Shown here in pieces: positions 17,238 to 64,000 of a DNA stretch of 64,000 nt. Position numbers and translations under genes: made by a program. The stretch comes from Psychrobacter immobilis (GTDB lineage: Bacteria > Pseudomonadota > Gammaproteobacteria > Pseudomonadales > Moraxellaceae). The notes beneath the pieces were generated by a model that had not been told where the DNA came from, did no database searches, and saw nothing but the letters and a program-made list of their open reading frames with translations. The stretch's first letter is position 1; every line of letters starts with the position of its first letter. Location: assembly GCF_904846285.1 (NCBI RefSeq), contig NZ_CAJHAD010000006.1, forward strand, positions 62,001 to 126,000, given 5' to 3'.

Positions 17238-18242
17238 ATGTTAAACAACGCTATTTATCCAAGATTAATTGCCGCGACAGGCGCACTGATTGTTTCTATG
17301 CATGTGGCAGCGGTCACATCAGAACAAGTAACCCCAATTAAACAGCCAGCAATTGAAAAGCTTTCAATTAATGAGCTGTCAACCGCCACCTTAGCAACCA
17401 AAGTGCCCGCAACTAAAATACCTTTAACCACGACAACATCAGCATCGCCTACCTCAAACTGTATTCCTGACAGTGTCATTACCGCGGCTGAGCTGTCAGC
17501 TACGCGCGATAATGGTCCTTTTACGGTGGCAAGTAAATCTGTTCCTCGGCAACTAGCCAATGGCTTCGGCGGCGGCACCATTCATTATCCTACCAATGCT
17601 GGAGACTGCGGTCTGTTAGGCGGTATCGCAGTGATTCCCGGTTATGTGTCTTACGAAGCCTCTATCAAATGGTGGGGGCCGCGTCTGGCATCTTGGGGAT
17701 TTGTGGTTATTACTATCGATACCAACTCTATTTATGATGACCCCGATAGCCGTGCGACGCAGTTGAGCGCCGCGCTCGATCATATTCTTAGCGATAGTAC
17801 GGTGGGTGCGCAAATAGATAGCACACGTTTAGGGGCTATCGGCTGGTCAATGGGCGGTGGTGGCGCGCTGCAGTTAGCGACCAAGCGCAGTGACGTTCGG
17901 GCCATTATTCCGCAAACGCCCTATCATGATAAAGACTACGGCAACATGGACACGCCTGCTTTATTTATTACCTGTCAAAATGACCGCATTGCCTCTAATA
18001 AAAAGTACAGCAGTCCGTTTTATAATAATGCTGCTGGCGCAAAAATGAAGATTGAGATAAAAAATGGCAGCCACTTTTGTCCAAGCTATCGCTTTAACGA
18101 GATATTACTCAGCAAACCAGGTATTGCTTGGATGCATCGCTACATAAATGGTGATACTCGCTTCGATAAATTCTTATGCAACAATGAAAATTATGGCAAC
18201 AGCCCCCGTATATCGACTTACGATTATAAGAATTGTGTATAG
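17238..18242 (+). CDS. Secreted PETase-family polyester hydrolase (alpha/beta hydrolase)
   Basis: A 334-residue precursor: signal peptide to about residue 25, a Thr/Ala/Pro/Lys-rich linker (~28-73), then the catalytic domain. GPFTV, YPTNAG, SIKWWGPRLAS, GFVVITIDTNS, GWSMGGGG, AWMHRYINGDTRF and the closing YDYKNCV follow Ideonella sakaiensis PETase closely (remembered sequence). The predicted triad is Ser204, Asp249, His279; oxyanion hole Tyr136 and Met205. Trp203 (PETase W159) and the PETase-specific cysteine pair (Cys246/Cys281) are kept. Tyr229 replaces W185 and Phe280 replaces S238, which resembles the type IIa subgroup. Cys314/Cys333 match the second disulfide, and Cys75/Cys124 are two further cysteines. 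Likely substrates are aliphatic or aromatic polyesters, cutin-like esters or lipids; PET activity itself is untested. Confidence 0.88.
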   Translation: MLNNAIYPRLIAATGALIVSMHVAAVTSEQVTPIKQPAIEKLSINELSTATLATKVPATKIPLTTTTSASPTSNCIPDSVITAAELSATRDNGPFTVASKSVPRQLANGFGGGTIHYPTNAGDCGLLGGIAVIPGYVSYEASIKWWGPRLASWGFVVITIDTNSIYDDPDSRATQLSAALDHILSDSTVGAQIDSTRLGAIGWSMGGGGALQLATKRSDVRAIIPQTPYHDKDYGNMDTPALFITCQNDRIASNKKYSSPFYNNAAGAKMKIEIKNGSHFCPSYRFNEILLSKPGIAWMHRYINGDTRFDKFLCNNENYGNSPRISTYDYKNCV

Positions 18243-18550: not shown

Positions 18551-18700
18551 CTAAGCTAACCCTGTCGCACCGACAGTTTTTGATTGTTTAGCCAGTATTA
18601 ATCCTTGATGTAAGATATTGATACTGGCATTGATATCGCGGTCATTTTGCTGCAAGCAACTTGGACAATTCCACATTCTAACCGACAGCGGTAATTCAGC
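18465..18700 (-). ncRNA. Probable omega-RNA (reRNA) region of element 1
   Basis: By analogy with known TnpB systems, the guide RNA scaffold overlaps the 3' end of tnpB and continues to the right end, with the guide taken from the bases just outside. The right-end hairpin at 18474-18488 fits. Boundaries are inferred, not seen. Confidence 0.4.
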
Positions 18701-19705
18701 TTTAGTCAGTAGATGGTTGCAGTTTGAGCAAGTCTTAGACGATGGAAACCATCGGTCTATTTTGACAAGCGTTTTGCCGTACCAGTCTGCTTTATAGGCA
18801 AGCATGGTGGTGAATGCTGACCATGAGCTATCACTGATTGCTTTTGCAAGTTTGTGATTCTTAACCATACCCTTGACGTTCAAGTCCTCTATCGCAATAA
18901 CATCGTGGTTTTTGATGAGATTGAATGAGAGTTTATGCAAGAAATCTTTGCGAGTATTGGTTATTTTCTCATAGACCTTGGCGACTTTTGTTTTTTGCTT
19001 TTGATAGTTGCGGCTCTCTGACAACTTGCGTTGATCCGCTTTGGCAACGGCTCTGCGTTTGGCTAGTATGTTCTGTTCACGCGCAAGCTTGGCTTGCAGC
19101 TTCGATAGAAACTTAGGATTGGCAACTTTCGTGCTGTCCGATAAGACGATAAAGTCTGTCAATCCTAAATCAATGCCGATGTTAGAGTGGGTTTTTGGTA
19201 ATTCATCAACGATGGTTTCAACCAGTAAGCTGACGTAATACTTACCTGATGGGATGCGGCTGATGGTGGCGCTCTTTATTAAGCCGTTTATTTTATCGGG
19301 GAACTTGGCGTTGATATGACCAACCTTAGGCAGCTTGACGGTGCTATCTGTGATCGTCACTGTACCCTTTTGATTGTTGGTGGTGTAACTGTCTTTAATG
19401 CCCTTTTTCTTGAACGTAGGGAAGCCTGTGCCGTTCTTAAAGAAGGCATTATAAGCCGCTCTTAGGTTTTGCTGCACATTCGCCAATGCTAAGCTATCGA
19501 CTTCTTTTAGCCATTCAAACTCTTTTTTATACTGAGCAGGGGTGTTGTTTAAGGTGGTCTTTGTGGTCTCATAGTGGTCTATTTTATCGCCAAGCATCCT
19601 ATTCCAAATAAAACGAGCACAACCGAACGACTTAGCAAAAAATATTTGCTGTTCTTCATTAGGGTACAGCCTGACTTTATGGGCTTTTAGGATTTGCTTT
19701 GGCAT
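18551..19705 (-). CDS. tnpB: TnpB RNA-guided nuclease (OrfB), element 1
   Basis: 384 residues, intact. The RuvC-type catalytic residues are present: Asp179 in IGIDLG, Glu273 in IAIEDL and Asp357 in NDRDINAS. The zinc-ribbon cysteines are CSNC (326/329) and CPSC (347/350). The N-terminal helix-turn-helix starts KAHKVRLYPNEEQQ. TnpB cleaves DNA next to a short target-adjacent motif when guided by the element's RNA, which helps the element persist after excision. No tnpA is adjacent. Only ~25% of the N-terminal part resembles element 2, so the two were acquired separately (by-eye estimate). Confidence 0.92.
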   Translation of the reverse strand: MPKQILKAHKVRLYPNEEQQIFFAKSFGCARFIWNRMLGDKIDHYETTKTTLNNTPAQYKKEFEWLKEVDSLALANVQQNLRAAYNAFFKNGTGFPTFKKKGIKDSYTTNNQKGTVTITDSTVKLPKVGHINAKFPDKINGLIKSATISRIPSGKYYVSLLVETIVDELPKTHSNIGIDLGLTDFIVLSDSTKVANPKFLSKLQAKLAREQNILAKRRAVAKADQRKLSESRNYQKQKTKVAKVYEKITNTRKDFLHKLSFNLIKNHDVIAIEDLNVKGMVKNHKLAKAISDSSWSAFTTMLAYKADWYGKTLVKIDRWFPSSKTCSNCNHLLTKAELPLSVRMWNCPSCLQQNDRDINASINILHQGLILAKQSKTVGATGLA

Positions 19706-19865: not shown

Positions 19866-20612
19866 ATGACCGATAAAATACATGATGTGGGTGCAGGATT
19901 TTGGAATATTCGTGGCACGTTTCGCTTAGGCGGGGTGCTAAATATAGGCACTCAGTGCTCGCTTGTAAAATTAGCCTCAGGGCGCTTTATATTTTTAGAC
20001 AGCTACGAGCTCACCGGCGACGTACGCGCTGAGGTAATGGCGTTAACCAACAATGGGCAAGATGTCGAAGCGGTCCTCAATGTCCACCCCTTTCATACTG
20101 TCCACTGCGCACAAATGGCAAAGGACTTCCCGCAAGCAACTTTTTATGGCAGTAGCCGTCATCATAAAAAAATCCCCGAAATTCAATGGGCAGACGATTT
20201 GGTCGAAAGCAATGCGGTCGCCAAGCGCTACCCTGAGCTGAAGTTTTCTATGTCAAAAGGTATTCATTATATCTCGCCCAATGAGATGATTCATGCAGGC
20301 TCGCTGTTGGTATTCCATCCTGCCAGTAAAAGCTTGCACGTCGATGATACTTTTATGAGTCCACCAACCAAATTACTAGAAGCGGTGTTACCGGAACTGT
20401 TATTGCACCCAACCACCAAAAAAGCACTAAAAGATGAGCCCAATGCTGGCAAGCAGTATTGCGACTGGGCGACTAATCTGGCGCATGAATGGCGCGAGGT
20501 ACGTAACTTCTGTGCCGCGCATTCTTATTTAGTGAAGTTTAAAGAGGGTGAGTTTGAAAAAGCCTTATTAAAAGCCATTGATAAAGCCCGTCCTAAGCTT
20601 GAAAACGCTTAA
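19866..20612 (+). CDS. Metallo-beta-lactamase-like protein of unknown role
   Basis: A 248-residue, probably cytosolic protein. The start has AAGGA ten bases upstream. It begins like an MBL-fold enzyme (FWNIRGTFRLGGVLNIGTQCSLVKLASGRFIFLDSY). The usual HxHxDH is replaced by HPFHTVH (His74, His77, His80), followed by FYGSSRHHKKIPEIQW and later SLHVDDTF (His158, Asp160/161). This resembles the divergent MBL-like families known only as conserved hypotheticals (DUF4336-type); the metal site is plausible but altered. The left end of tnpB element 1 lies about 45-60 bp upstream, so the insertion may have replaced the original promoter. Confidence 0.6.
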   Translation: MTDKIHDVGAGFWNIRGTFRLGGVLNIGTQCSLVKLASGRFIFLDSYELTGDVRAEVMALTNNGQDVEAVLNVHPFHTVHCAQMAKDFPQATFYGSSRHHKKIPEIQWADDLVESNAVAKRYPELKFSMSKGIHYISPNEMIHAGSLLVFHPASKSLHVDDTFMSPPTKLLEAVLPELLLHPTTKKALKDEPNAGKQYCDWATNLAHEWREVRNFCAAHSYLVKFKEGEFEKALLKAIDKARPKLENA

Positions 20613-60490: not shown

Positions 60491-61270
60491 CTATTGGCCG
60501 GCAGATAATCCTCCATCACTGACTAAGATAGTGCCAGTTACATAGCGTGCACCCTTCGCGCTTGCTAACATGACATAAAGATCAGTATGTTCCTCAGGAG
60601 AGGAGACACGACCTAGAGGGATATGTTTGCCCATAGATTCTAGGCGCGCGCGATCTTTATTCATGGATTTGCCCGTTTGATTTAATGCATCCGTACCGCC
60701 GATTGGTGTATCTGTGGCGCCAGGTGCGATGCCGCAGACGCGCACATTTGGGGCAAAATCTAATGCTAACTGAGCAACAACGCCGCGTAGCGCGTATTTA
60801 GAAGCGGTATATAAAGGCCCACCACCGCCCGGACGGAAGCAAGCGTTAGAGCCTGTGGTTACAAAGCAGCCTCGCGAGTCTTCTAAAGCTGCATAGCTGG
60901 CATGAGCCGCCATCAATACGGCTCTGACATTGGTTGACATGATTTGCTCAAAACCGTCTTCTAACTCTTGCGCCGACATTTTTTGCAGCTTTTTAAAGAA
61001 ATCCCACACGCCAGCATTGGCTACCATGGCATCAAGCCCGCCCCACTTCTCAATTGCCGTATCGACAGCGGATTGGTTGGTCGCATAATCATTGACGTCA
61101 CCGACCACATAACAGAAGTTTTCATTGGTTAAAAACTTCTCTATTTGTTCAGGTTTGCGTACGACAGCAAGCACTTTAGCGCCTTCTTGCAGAAATCTGT
61201 CTACAATAGCTTTACCGATACCGCTGCCGGCGCCAGTGATAATCACTCGTCTATTCAATAGCATTTGCAT
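60491..61270 (-). CDS. cis-Dihydrodiol dehydrogenase (SDR, BphB/HcaB-like)
   Basis: 259 residues. NAD loop VIITGAGSGIGKAIVDRF, NAGVWDF, the catalytic Ser-Tyr-Lys set (TTGSNACFRPGGGGPLYTASKYAL) and VRVCGIAPGATDTPIGG. The last two blocks and the spacing resemble the dehydrogenases of biphenyl and phenylpropionate pathways. It would rearomatise the dioxygenase product to a catechol. Placement directly after the dioxygenase subunits supports this. Confidence 0.83.
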   Translation of the reverse strand: MQMLLNRRVIITGAGSGIGKAIVDRFLQEGAKVLAVVRKPEQIEKFLTNENFCYVVGDVNDYATNQSAVDTAIEKWGGLDAMVANAGVWDFFKKLQKMSAQELEDGFEQIMSTNVRAVLMAAHASYAALEDSRGCFVTTGSNACFRPGGGGPLYTASKYALRGVVAQLALDFAPNVRVCGIAPGATDTPIGGTDALNQTGKSMNKDRARLESMGKHIPLGRVSSPEEHTDLYVMLASAKGARYVTGTILVSDGGLSAGQ

Positions 61271-61309
61271 ATTATTGCCTTAAAATCACCTATTAAATTT
61301 TATAAAGCG

Positions 61310-61858
61310 CTACATAAATACGTTTAGGTTTTTGGTCAGTAACGTAGATTGTTGCAGCAGAATCAGCCGTCCAGCCAAACGATACTCATCGCCTACTTTG
61401 CGCCAGATGTCTTTACGGCGTCCCATCAAGGTAGAGTCATCACGCTCAAAGCGACTGCGGTATAAAGTAAATACACTATGGACTTCAAACTCGTCCGCTT
61501 TATCGGTATGAAAGACCTCTAAGTTTGATATCGCCGTTACCTGACGGGTTGGCGGATCTTCTGTCCAGCACATGCCACTATCATTGCGTTTTAGGCGCAT
61601 CATGATTGAATCTTTATCTTCTTCAAACAAGGATACTCTAGCTGTGGTAATTTCTGGCGTACGGTTCCTACGCAGAATGTTCTCGCGAATAGGTGCCCAG
61701 TAAATTAAATCGTCTTCCAAGTTGTCTGCCCATTTATCAAGAATCTCGTGATTTAGCAGATATATTTCATGATTGACAAACCTTTGAATATCAAAAAAAG
61801 TCTGAATATCTACATGTTTACCTTTAGCTTCAAGTGCTAATAACTGATCTCTGGTCAT
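61310..61858 (-). CDS. Ring-hydroxylating dioxygenase, beta subunit
   Basis: 182 residues of the SnoaL-like cone fold. Family landmarks are FVNHEIYLLNHEILDKWADNLEDDLIYWAPIREN, DPPTRQVTAISNLEV, VHSVFTLYRSRFERDDSTLMGRRKDIWRK and the closing AGRLILLQQSTLLTKNLNVFM. It has a structural role in an alpha3beta3 oxygenase. AGGAG lies 6 bases before the start; only 12 bp separate it from the alpha gene. Confidence 0.92.
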   Translation of the reverse strand: MTRDQLLALEAKGKHVDIQTFFDIQRFVNHEIYLLNHEILDKWADNLEDDLIYWAPIRENILRRNRTPEITTARVSLFEEDKDSIMMRLKRNDSGMCWTEDPPTRQVTAISNLEVFHTDKADEFEVHSVFTLYRSRFERDDSTLMGRRKDIWRKVGDEYRLAGRLILLQQSTLLTKNLNVFM

Positions 61859-61870
61859 GGTTAGCTCCTT

Positions 61871-63175
61871 TTAGAATTTTGACTCTGCTAGTGGAATATC
61901 AGCCCAACTGCCAGCTTCCATAAATTCGGTATAGCGTTTGAAAAACAGACGTTGGTTGGCGTCATTCAACTGACCTTTGGTAACCGTACCTGGCAAGTCA
62001 ATAGGAACCGCTTCGCCCTTCGTTGGATTCATGGCATAGCACAATTTTTGATTACGAGTGACGTATCCTGAGTTGCCAAGCGTGGCATGTTCCCAGTTTT
62101 CACCGTCGTCCATCTCCAAAATCCCACTTGGCGAAAAAGTACGCATCGCGCCCAGTCGCCACTTATCTTTTATCTCGTCCGATGCTTCGCTTGGAACTAA
62201 CGTCCAGCTATGCAGTTCTGTCTCTGTTGGTCCTTTGGGTAAAAAAGTTCTAAAGGTTAGGTAACCAGGTAAGAAAGCAAAGTTAGGGAAGATAAGTCCC
62301 GATGCCACCGAACCTAGCATTTTTCCACGTGCTACCCCTAAGCGCTTGCTAATCTCTTGCTCACGAGAGCGTAGATATTTGATGATATCTTTGTCGCCCA
62401 TGGTCGCCGCATTACCAAAGTTATTGGCTAATGAAAATTCCCAACCATGACCATTGACACTGGCTTGATAAGAATTTTCATTACTGACCATAATGCCGCC
62501 AGCCTCTTTAAGTGTTGCCTCTGCCGCACCAAGGTGCGTCCATAAAGCATGATAAATATCACCGACAAAGTTATCAGCAGGATATTTCCAATTACATTTA
62601 AGTAATGAGCGTGTCGTCCCAGGCAAAAACTCAGTGCCTTTATCGTCTACGTCCAAGATTGCATCCAAATACCAGCGGAAATCACCCAAATACTCTCCTA
62701 ACGACGGCGCTTCTTCATCAAAAGTTGCAAAGACCAAGCCTTTATAAGTTTCGACGCGAGCTCTATGCAAGCCCCAGTCTTCTTTGTTAAAGCCTTCGGT
62801 TTTGTCATACAGCTCATTTGCAGGCATACCATTGAGCTTACCGTCTAGACCAAACGCCCAGCCATGATAATTACAGACAAATGAGCGAATTTTACCTTCA
62901 CCGGCAAAGCACACTTTATTGCCGCGATGCGGACAAGCATTAAGCATGACGTTGATGCTTTTATCTTTTGCTCTCGCGACAATAACTGCATCTTCTCCGA
63001 TGTAAGTGGTGATAAAGTCGCCAAAGGATTCGACTTGTGATTCGTGGGCGACAAAATGCCAGCAGCGTGCAAAAATCTGCTTTAGCTCTTGTTGATAGAT
63101 AGCCTCATCCCAAAAAATACGTCTATCTATTAATCCATTTTCGTGATCAACCATTGACCGTATATTCATTGACAT
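61871..63175 (-). CDS. Rieske ring-hydroxylating dioxygenase, alpha subunit
   Basis: 434 residues. The Rieske ligands are Cys81/His83 (CPHRG) and Cys101/His104 (CNYHGW). The mononuclear-iron site is DNFVGDIYHALWTH: His209, His214 and bridging Asp206, with the third ligand in MDDGENWE (356/357). The motif is that of naphthalene/biphenyl/cumate-type enzymes, not of terephthalate dioxygenase. GGAG precedes the start. It should form cis-dihydrodiols from an aromatic acid. The ferredoxin and reductase are not encoded nearby. Confidence 0.9.
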   Translation of the reverse strand: MSMNIRSMVDHENGLIDRRIFWDEAIYQQELKQIFARCWHFVAHESQVESFGDFITTYIGEDAVIVARAKDKSINVMLNACPHRGNKVCFAGEGKIRSFVCNYHGWAFGLDGKLNGMPANELYDKTEGFNKEDWGLHRARVETYKGLVFATFDEEAPSLGEYLGDFRWYLDAILDVDDKGTEFLPGTTRSLLKCNWKYPADNFVGDIYHALWTHLGAAEATLKEAGGIMVSNENSYQASVNGHGWEFSLANNFGNAATMGDKDIIKYLRSREQEISKRLGVARGKMLGSVASGLIFPNFAFLPGYLTFRTFLPKGPTETELHSWTLVPSEASDEIKDKWRLGAMRTFSPSGILEMDDGENWEHATLGNSGYVTRNQKLCYAMNPTKGEAVPIDLPGTVTKGQLNDANQRLFFKRYTEFMEAGSWADIPLAESKF

Positions 63176-63230
63176 TAGTGTTTCTCCGTAATTAAAATTA
63201 AGCGATTTTAGTTTAGTAAGCGGTTATTAT

Positions 63231-64000
63231 TTAAAAATAATGGAAGTAAATACTCGATTGTCTTTCTTTGTCATACATCTTATCGATGAGTTCTGACCAA
63301 CTTTCTAATAAGGCTCGTTGATTTAAATAGCCCTTATCAGTTATTTCATTTTTTTCAATTGATGGTTGCTCAGGTATGATTGCCACCCTACCTATTCTGG
63401 TACTATTACTGAAATACACGTCGTTATATTGTTGCAATAGCTCAACGACCTGATGAACAACCGCATCCAGCTGTTGCAAATGGGCGGCATTTTGTTGCTC
63501 TTCCGTCAATTGATACTCTTTAGCCAGACGCTCAATGTTTGGCACGATAAGTAAACCAATCTCCGACTGGTTGTGTCCTGTAATAACTGCGTCTAAAAAG
63601 TAAGGTTTTAATGCCGTCACGACTCCCACTCTAATTGCATTGACATTGACCCAAGTACCAGAGCGCAGTTTGAAGTTCTCGGACGTTCTGCCATCAAATA
63701 TCAAGCCTTCAGATGGGTTGTCTGGATTGATTAATCGACCTGCATCACCCATCGAATAAAAACCGTCTGCATCAAAAGCTTCAGCCGTTGCCTTCTCATT
63801 GCGCCAATACCCTGGCGTCACATTGGGACCACGTACCGCAAGTGCCATCTTATCCTGCACCGGTGTTAATTTAATCTCGGTTCCGGGCATAGGCACACCG
63901 ATATTAACGGCGACATCAGACTCAAAGTTTAGACAGGTTGCAAAAGGTGCGGTTTCTGTAGAACCCCAGCCAGCCAAAAGCTTAGGACTGGTGCCAACCA
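63231..64000 (-). CDS. Feruloyl-CoA-synthetase-like acyl-CoA ligase, C-terminal part (runs off the right edge)
   Basis: The frame is open through base 64000; the TTG at 63977 is an internal Leu codon, since TSPKLL precedes AGWGSTETAP in frame. Landmarks are GWGSTETAPFAT, the GYWRNEKATAEAFDADGFYSMGDAGRL block, FDGRTSENFKLRSGTWVNV, and a C-terminal domain that keeps Lys in IEKNEITDKGYLNQRAL. This pattern is that of Fcs-type ligases, which activate phenylpropenoic acids. It is the most upstream gene seen of the leftward aromatic operon. The substrate is not known. Confidence 0.82.
   Translation of the reverse strand, partial: VGTSPKLLAGWGSTETAPFATCLNFESDVAVNIGVPMPGTEIKLTPVQDKMALAVRGPNVTPGYWRNEKATAEAFDADGFYSMGDAGRLINPDNPSEGLIFDGRTSENFKLRSGTWVNVNAIRVGVVTALKPYFLDAVITGHNQSEIGLLIVPNIERLAKEYQLTEEQQNAAHLQQLDAVVHQVVELLQQYNDVYFSNSTRIGRVAIIPEQPSIEKNEITDKGYLNQRALLESWSELIDKMYDKERQSSIYFHYF

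Follow-up and report, generated by a model that had tools for sequence, protein, structure and literature searches.

A gene of Psychrobacter immobilis whose product resembles the PETase of Ideonella sakaiensis raises the question of whether it encodes a dedicated plastic-degrading enzyme, an ordinary lipase, or a secreted ester hydrolase for which PET is a side substrate. The gene lies in a 64,000-nucleotide stretch of contig NZ_CAJHAD010000006.1 (hereafter the window), in which an earlier note, made from the letters alone, had placed a PETase-family reading frame. A reading frame of 334 amino acids was found there, at 17238-18242 on the forward strand. Its product matched the PF12740 profile with 295.9 bits (E 3.4e-88), against a curated cut-off of 28 bits. 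Because this cut-off was also exceeded in 4 of 14 control genomes, passing it is non-specific by itself, while the 296-bit score is specific. No other reading frame in the source genome (3.23 Mb, 79 contigs, 99.9% complete) matched PF12740 at E ≤ 0.001. The best sequence match in the PDB was 8spk_A (E 2e-138), which the structure title and residue numbers identify as Mors1. The NCBIfam model of the bis(hydroxyethyl) terephthalate hydrolase BdeA (NF051441) gave 248 bits, short of the 520-bit cut-off.

An AlphaFold2 model built from a 27-row alignment had a mean pLDDT of 74.7 and a pTM of 0.74, with residues 1-71 below a pLDDT of 50. When this model was compared with the PDB using Foldseek, 8spk ranked first (E 1.4e-41, TMt 0.93, rmsd 2.0, 75% identity). 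Ser204, Asp249 and His279 correspond by alignment to the Ser-Asp-His triad of a GxSxG alpha/beta hydrolase, and the predicted fold matches 8spk. The likeness to an Antarctic Moraxella enzyme, remarked on in the earlier note, was borne out, with Mors1 being the nearest solved structure at 75% core identity. Our preferred reading (probability about 0.93) is that this Psychrobacter gene is orthologous to Mors1 and encodes a type IIa PET hydrolase, which is probably exported and would act as a serine ester hydrolase with PET as a slow side activity. It adds an ordinary member to a group that is already known and structurally solved, and whose enzyme type and peculiarities have been published. The label of a cold-environment enzyme, also given earlier, derives from the genus alone.

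Residues 1-25 (17238-17312, forward strand) probably form a Sec signal peptide, judged by eye from an Arg, a hydrophobic run and then small residues, and from this look of the N-terminus the protein is probably exported. The linker that had been proposed to follow the signal peptide was recovered as residues 26-74 (17313-17459, forward strand). It comprises 49 residues, is rich in Thr, Ser and Pro (11 Thr, 6 Ser, 5 Pro, 5 Ala, 4 Lys), is variable and is predicted to be disordered. GspL, the sole type II secretion component sought, gave a family match of 40 bits in the genome.

Active site and disulfides

To place residues, we used an alignment of the window protein, 38 Psychrobacter loci, 14 other Pseudomonadales loci (Pseudomonas, Stutzerimonas, Ketobacter and one unplaced MAG, here called Pseudomonas-type) and the cores of 8spk, 8cru and 7z6b. 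L055 and L062 were left out for their internal stops, and the aligned loci are biased towards close relatives. Numbering was anchored at S160 for 8cru, an IsPETase variant, and at Cys60 for 8spk (Mors1). Trp203, Ser204, Tyr229, Cys246, Asp249, His279, Phe280, Cys281 and Cys333 fell on W159, S160, W185, C203, D206, H237, S238, C239 and C289 of IsPETase, respectively. The earlier note had been prepared to give up its reading if the triad and the Cys246/Cys281 pair missed the PETase residues; all sit on PETase positions, and its placements of Trp203, Tyr229 (W185) and Phe280 (S238) were equally correct. Six Mors1 residues named in a 2024 review (Cys60, Cys109, Asp153, Tyr214, Cys231 and Cys266; PMC11509169) mapped to residues 75, 124, 168, 229, 246 and 281 of the window protein, always 15 positions higher.

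The nucleophile Ser204 (17847-17849) lies in the motif GWSMGGGG and, like the catalytic acid Asp249 (17982-17984), was invariant in 27 rows. The catalytic His279, the type IIa Phe280 and the active-site disulfide residue Cys281 are encoded at 18072-18080; these and all residues below are on the forward strand. The triad was kept in all 39 Psychrobacter and all 14 Pseudomonas-type rows, as were Trp203, Tyr229 (17922-17924; Tyr214 of Mors1) and Cys246/Cys281 throughout the Psychrobacter rows. Phe280 was present in 35 of these 39; L051-L053 have Leu there and L054 has Ser. At position 168 in subsite I (IsPETase Q119), 19 Psychrobacter rows have Asp, 15 Asn, three Arg, one His and one Gln, which makes a series of natural active-site variants.

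The active site had been described earlier as type IIa-like. This stood for Phe280 at the S238 position, a feature named for OaCut in the review (PMC11509169), and for the two conserved disulfides, for which Cys246/Cys281 and Cys314/Cys333 are suitably positioned. It needs qualifying for the loop after the catalytic His, which is divergent in sequence and one residue shorter than in the 14 Pseudomonas-type rows (HFCPSYRF-NEILL in the window protein vs HFCANSGYPNEDLL in relatives). The loop of Mors1 is HFCPSYRFNEILL, and that of the window protein is the same. The 15-residue region of Mors1 has been swapped for the 13 residues of LCC, according to the same review (PMC11509169). By position, Cys75, Cys124, Tyr229 and Asp168 reproduce the features of the Mors1 group, Cys60-Cys109, Tyr214 and Asp153.

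These residues bear on whether the protein could be an ordinary secreted lipase or esterase that has short-chain lipids as substrates and is of no useful activity towards solid polyesters. The 8spk chain was deposited as 'Lipase 1', the Trp of subsite I is replaced by Tyr in the window protein, and the post-His loop is unlike that of the Pseudomonas-type relatives. However, Mors1, with the same Tyr, Asp and loop, is described in the review as hydrolysing both PCL and PET (PMC11509169), and we regard a plain lipase as unlikely.

The window protein contains exactly six Cys, at 75, 124, 246, 281, 314 and 333. Cys246 (17973-17975; C203 of IsPETase, Cys231 of Mors1) would pair with Cys281 in the active-site disulfide. 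The C-terminal pair pointed out in the earlier note corresponds to Cys314 (18177-18179) and Cys333 (18234-18236), which, going by the family, would form a second bond. Both were present in 38 of 39 Psychrobacter rows, L031 having no Cys333 equivalent, and in 14 of 14 others. A third disulfide between Cys75 (17460-17462) and Cys124 (17607-17609) had been guessed. Every one of the 39 Psychrobacter rows had Cys at both positions, and Cys124 had no counterpart in any of the 14 Pseudomonas-type rows. They align with Cys60 and Cys109 of Mors1, whose disulfide was confirmed in the crystal structure as reported in the review (PMC11509169). The guessed pair is thus the equivalent of a disulfide already solved in the nearest homologue, and by analogy with Mors1 the bond would be expected to form in the window protein. 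In this arrangement, three disulfides (75-124, 246-281 and 314-333) would staple the core, and the linker would act as a weakly constrained spacer.

A CxxC motif ending at the Cys75 position was found in 14 of 14 Pseudomonas-type rows and in none of the 39 Psychrobacter rows, the window protein included. The third disulfide of PET6 is given as Cys27-Cys30 in PMC9679969. This spacing fits CxxC; PET6 entered the alignment without its N-terminal part. The third disulfides of PET6 and Mors1 are treated as one in the review (PMC11509169). Judged from residue numbers and the alignment, they are different bonds, a small new point, and the idea of a single shared cold adaptation therefore needs care. 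One tentative explanation, to which we give slightly less than even odds, is that the N-terminal disulfide was rewired in the Psychrobacter/Mors1 lineage, which lost the first Cys of the CxxC, kept the second as Cys75 and gained Cys124. Cys124 may then, just as tentatively, have arisen within a two-residue insertion, with the type IIa relatives closing the local CxxC as PET6 does. The descent of Cys75 from the second CxxC Cys hinges on how a weakly conserved stretch is aligned. If true, the rewiring would be a natural partner swap that stapled the linker to the core over a long range, a candidate for a role in cold activity.

Selection, spread and locus

To assess selection, the window gene was compared with those of other Psychrobacter in twelve pairs, which share ancestry and are non-independent. 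Core dN/dS was 0.037-0.081 in nine of the twelve, dS being saturated in the other three, and the catalytic core is under strong purifying selection. In the linker, pN/pS reached 0.7 or more in 10 of the 12 pairs and was lower for L022 (0.068 vs 0.235) and L036 (0.427 vs 0.803). This pattern indicates that the linker is weakly constrained at most. Core synonymous divergence from the window gene was 0.365 for L025, 0.290 for L026 and 0.664 for L022. The neighbouring MFS and 248-amino-acid protein genes are closer to the window in L022 than in L025 and L026. The lower core divergence of L025 and L026 despite the closer flanks of L022 suggests that the catalytic core has recombined between species.

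We constructed a core tree of 41 rows, from which 15 near-duplicates were omitted, and drew it with a midpoint root. Mors1 and every Psychrobacter row fell into one group (100/100). Mors1 was sister to P. glacincola ACAM483 (95/87) inside Psychrobacter, and the window protein and Mors1 shared an 18-row group (96/91), with P. maritimus as the nearest row to the window protein. The nesting of Mors1 indicates that this 'Moraxella' enzyme belongs to the Psychrobacter orthologue group. The solved cold-active PET hydrolase is now tied to natural variants across the genus, which are useful for structure-function work on cold-active polyesterases.

Searching 57 genomes (the source genome and its relatives) with the window protein gave a match in 19, of which 18 were in the genus and one, weak (37 bits), was in another family. 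Among 105 Psychrobacter genomes, PF12740 was matched in 69, above the cut-off in 55 and above 200 bits in 50; the remaining 19 of the 69 had only matches below 30 bits. One genome (G067) carries two strong copies, and another (G087) has the gene broken into two reading frames. The closest named genome, P. maritimus Pi2-25 (L021), encodes a PETase 99% identical over all 334 residues. P. glacincola ACAM483, represented by L036, has a second copy (L054:7923-8810) that is basal in the Psychrobacter group. The N-terminus of this copy is short, residue 168 is Gln, and the S238 position has Ser as in IsPETase (HSCANSGY-NEALL); the equivalents of Cys75 and Cys124 are both kept.

The gene was found to have conserved neighbours on both sides. 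A divergent MFS transporter gene (PF07690; 15480-16832, reverse strand) occurs in 36 of the 39 Psychrobacter loci L021-L059. It is one of the upstream genes on the opposite strand, together with those for an acyl-CoA ligase, the propionate-CoA ligase PrpE and methylmalonate-semialdehyde dehydrogenase. Downstream, a 248-amino-acid protein is encoded at 19866-20612 (forward strand), with a homologue downstream in 37 of 39 loci. This protein had no Pfam match at 1e-5 and no NCBIfam match at 1e-10 (DUF4336 at E 0.16), and it may be a functional partner of the PETase. Its homologue is often present in two copies and also adjoins the differently placed PETase copy of L054. Nine other window proteins were found in L021, eight of them 97-100% identical and the PrpE-like ligase 92%. 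At the P. frigidicola locus (L035), 0 of 10 other window proteins searched were found.

A gene for an IS200/IS605-type TnpB of the RNA-guided endonuclease family (462 bits) is inserted at 18551-19705, between the PETase and the 248-amino-acid protein genes. The gap between these two genes is 1.6 kb with tnpB in the window and 0.3 kb without it in L021. No match to tnpB was found between the two genes in the other loci, and one 31%-identical match lies elsewhere in L029. No near match to the TnpB gene was found in the plasmid collection. A plasmid origin of the PETase was rejected, since the five plasmid records that matched were all below 60% identity.

Natural substrate and comparison with known enzymes

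Only one PF00848 match was found in the 79-contig genome, at 61871-63175 (reverse strand) within the window. This protein scored 321 bits for biphenyl dioxygenase, 312 bits for cinnamate dioxygenase and 117 bits for terephthalate dioxygenase. The single PF00848 oxygenase of the genome is thus biphenyl/cinnamate-dioxygenase-like and not terephthalate-dioxygenase-like, which makes PET an improbable natural substrate. A search of the genome for MHETase (tannase, PF07519) gave no match, and the control genomes were likewise without one. Nothing observed in the genome points to growth on PET, and from the genome content the natural substrate is probably something else. The oxygenase belongs to an aromatic ring-hydroxylating dioxygenase cluster at 60491-63977, comprising an HcaE/BphA-like alpha subunit, a beta subunit, an HcaB-like dehydrogenase and an acyl-CoA ligase that lies near the window edge. 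For the alpha subunit and the dehydrogenase, the scores against the best NCBIfam equivalogs are under the respective cut-offs.

That the protein is a dedicated PET-degrading enzyme, recently acquired in adaptation to plastic pollution and feeding a terephthalate pathway, is highly improbable: Mors1, 75% identical, does hydrolyse amorphous PET film at 25 C, with release of MHET and TPA, according to the review (PMC11509169), but the locus is the same in most of the 39 named Psychrobacter loci (the MFS gene in 36), synonymous divergence is high with low dN/dS, and the PF00848 search of the genome found no terephthalate-dioxygenase-like gene. We rejected a recently acquired plastic-eating trait on the conserved locus and low dN/dS, and a link to a terephthalate pathway on the biphenyl/cinnamate-dioxygenase-like nature of the lone PF00848 oxygenase.

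As a Mors1 orthologue, the enzyme would probably be exported by Sec and then by type II secretion and act outside the cell; a secreted ester-cutting function is probable. Ser204, activated by His279 and Asp249, would attack the ester carbonyl, and the backbone amides of Tyr136 and Met205 (IsPETase positions Y87 and M161, with the role taken from the family) would hold the oxyanion. The substrates would most likely be lipids or natural or aliphatic polyesters in the cold, with PET cleaved slowly on the side. In nature the enzyme may act on lipids or aliphatic polyesters, and its activity and temperature range would be those suggested by Mors1 and IsPETase. On PCL, Mors1 has its optimum at about 25 C.

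PETase transcripts in the ocean include members of the Moraxellaceae, as stated in an ISME J survey (PMC12224614). Of the known enzymes, Mors1 (Moraxella sp. TA144, PDB 8SPK) is closest, with 196 of 261 core residues identical (75.1%), the same triad, the Tyr214 and Asp153 equivalents, the same post-His loop and the Cys positions of all three disulfides. It differs in 65 core residues, and the N-terminal region of the window protein is 15 residues longer by numbering. We take P19833 to be identical with Mors1. P19833 appears as a Moraxella sp. entry in PMC8857425, where a Psychrobacter nivimaris LAMA 639 homologue is entered as a poly(ethylene terephthalate) hydrolase whose similarity to P19833.1 is 69.5%; other Psychrobacter PET hydrolases may be in print. 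The LAMA 639 enzyme (L043) is from the same genus and has the same Cys pair, but is 65% identical to the window protein and has Asn at 168 as well as Ala282 and His284 in the loop.

PET6 (Vibrio gazogenes, PDB 7Z6B) shares 122 of 236 residues (51.7%) and also has three disulfides (PMC9679969). However, its third, Cys27-Cys30, is near the N-terminus, and it has no Cys at the Cys124 position and Trp at that of Tyr229. IsPETase (Ideonella sakaiensis, type IIb) shares the triad, the Trp159 equivalent and the Cys of the active-site and C-terminal disulfides, the 8cru variant being identical to the core of the window protein at 114 of 241 residues (47.3%). The window protein differs from IsPETase in having Phe, Tyr and Asp in place of S238, W185 and Q119, respectively, as well as the Cys75-Cys124 pair and a long linker.
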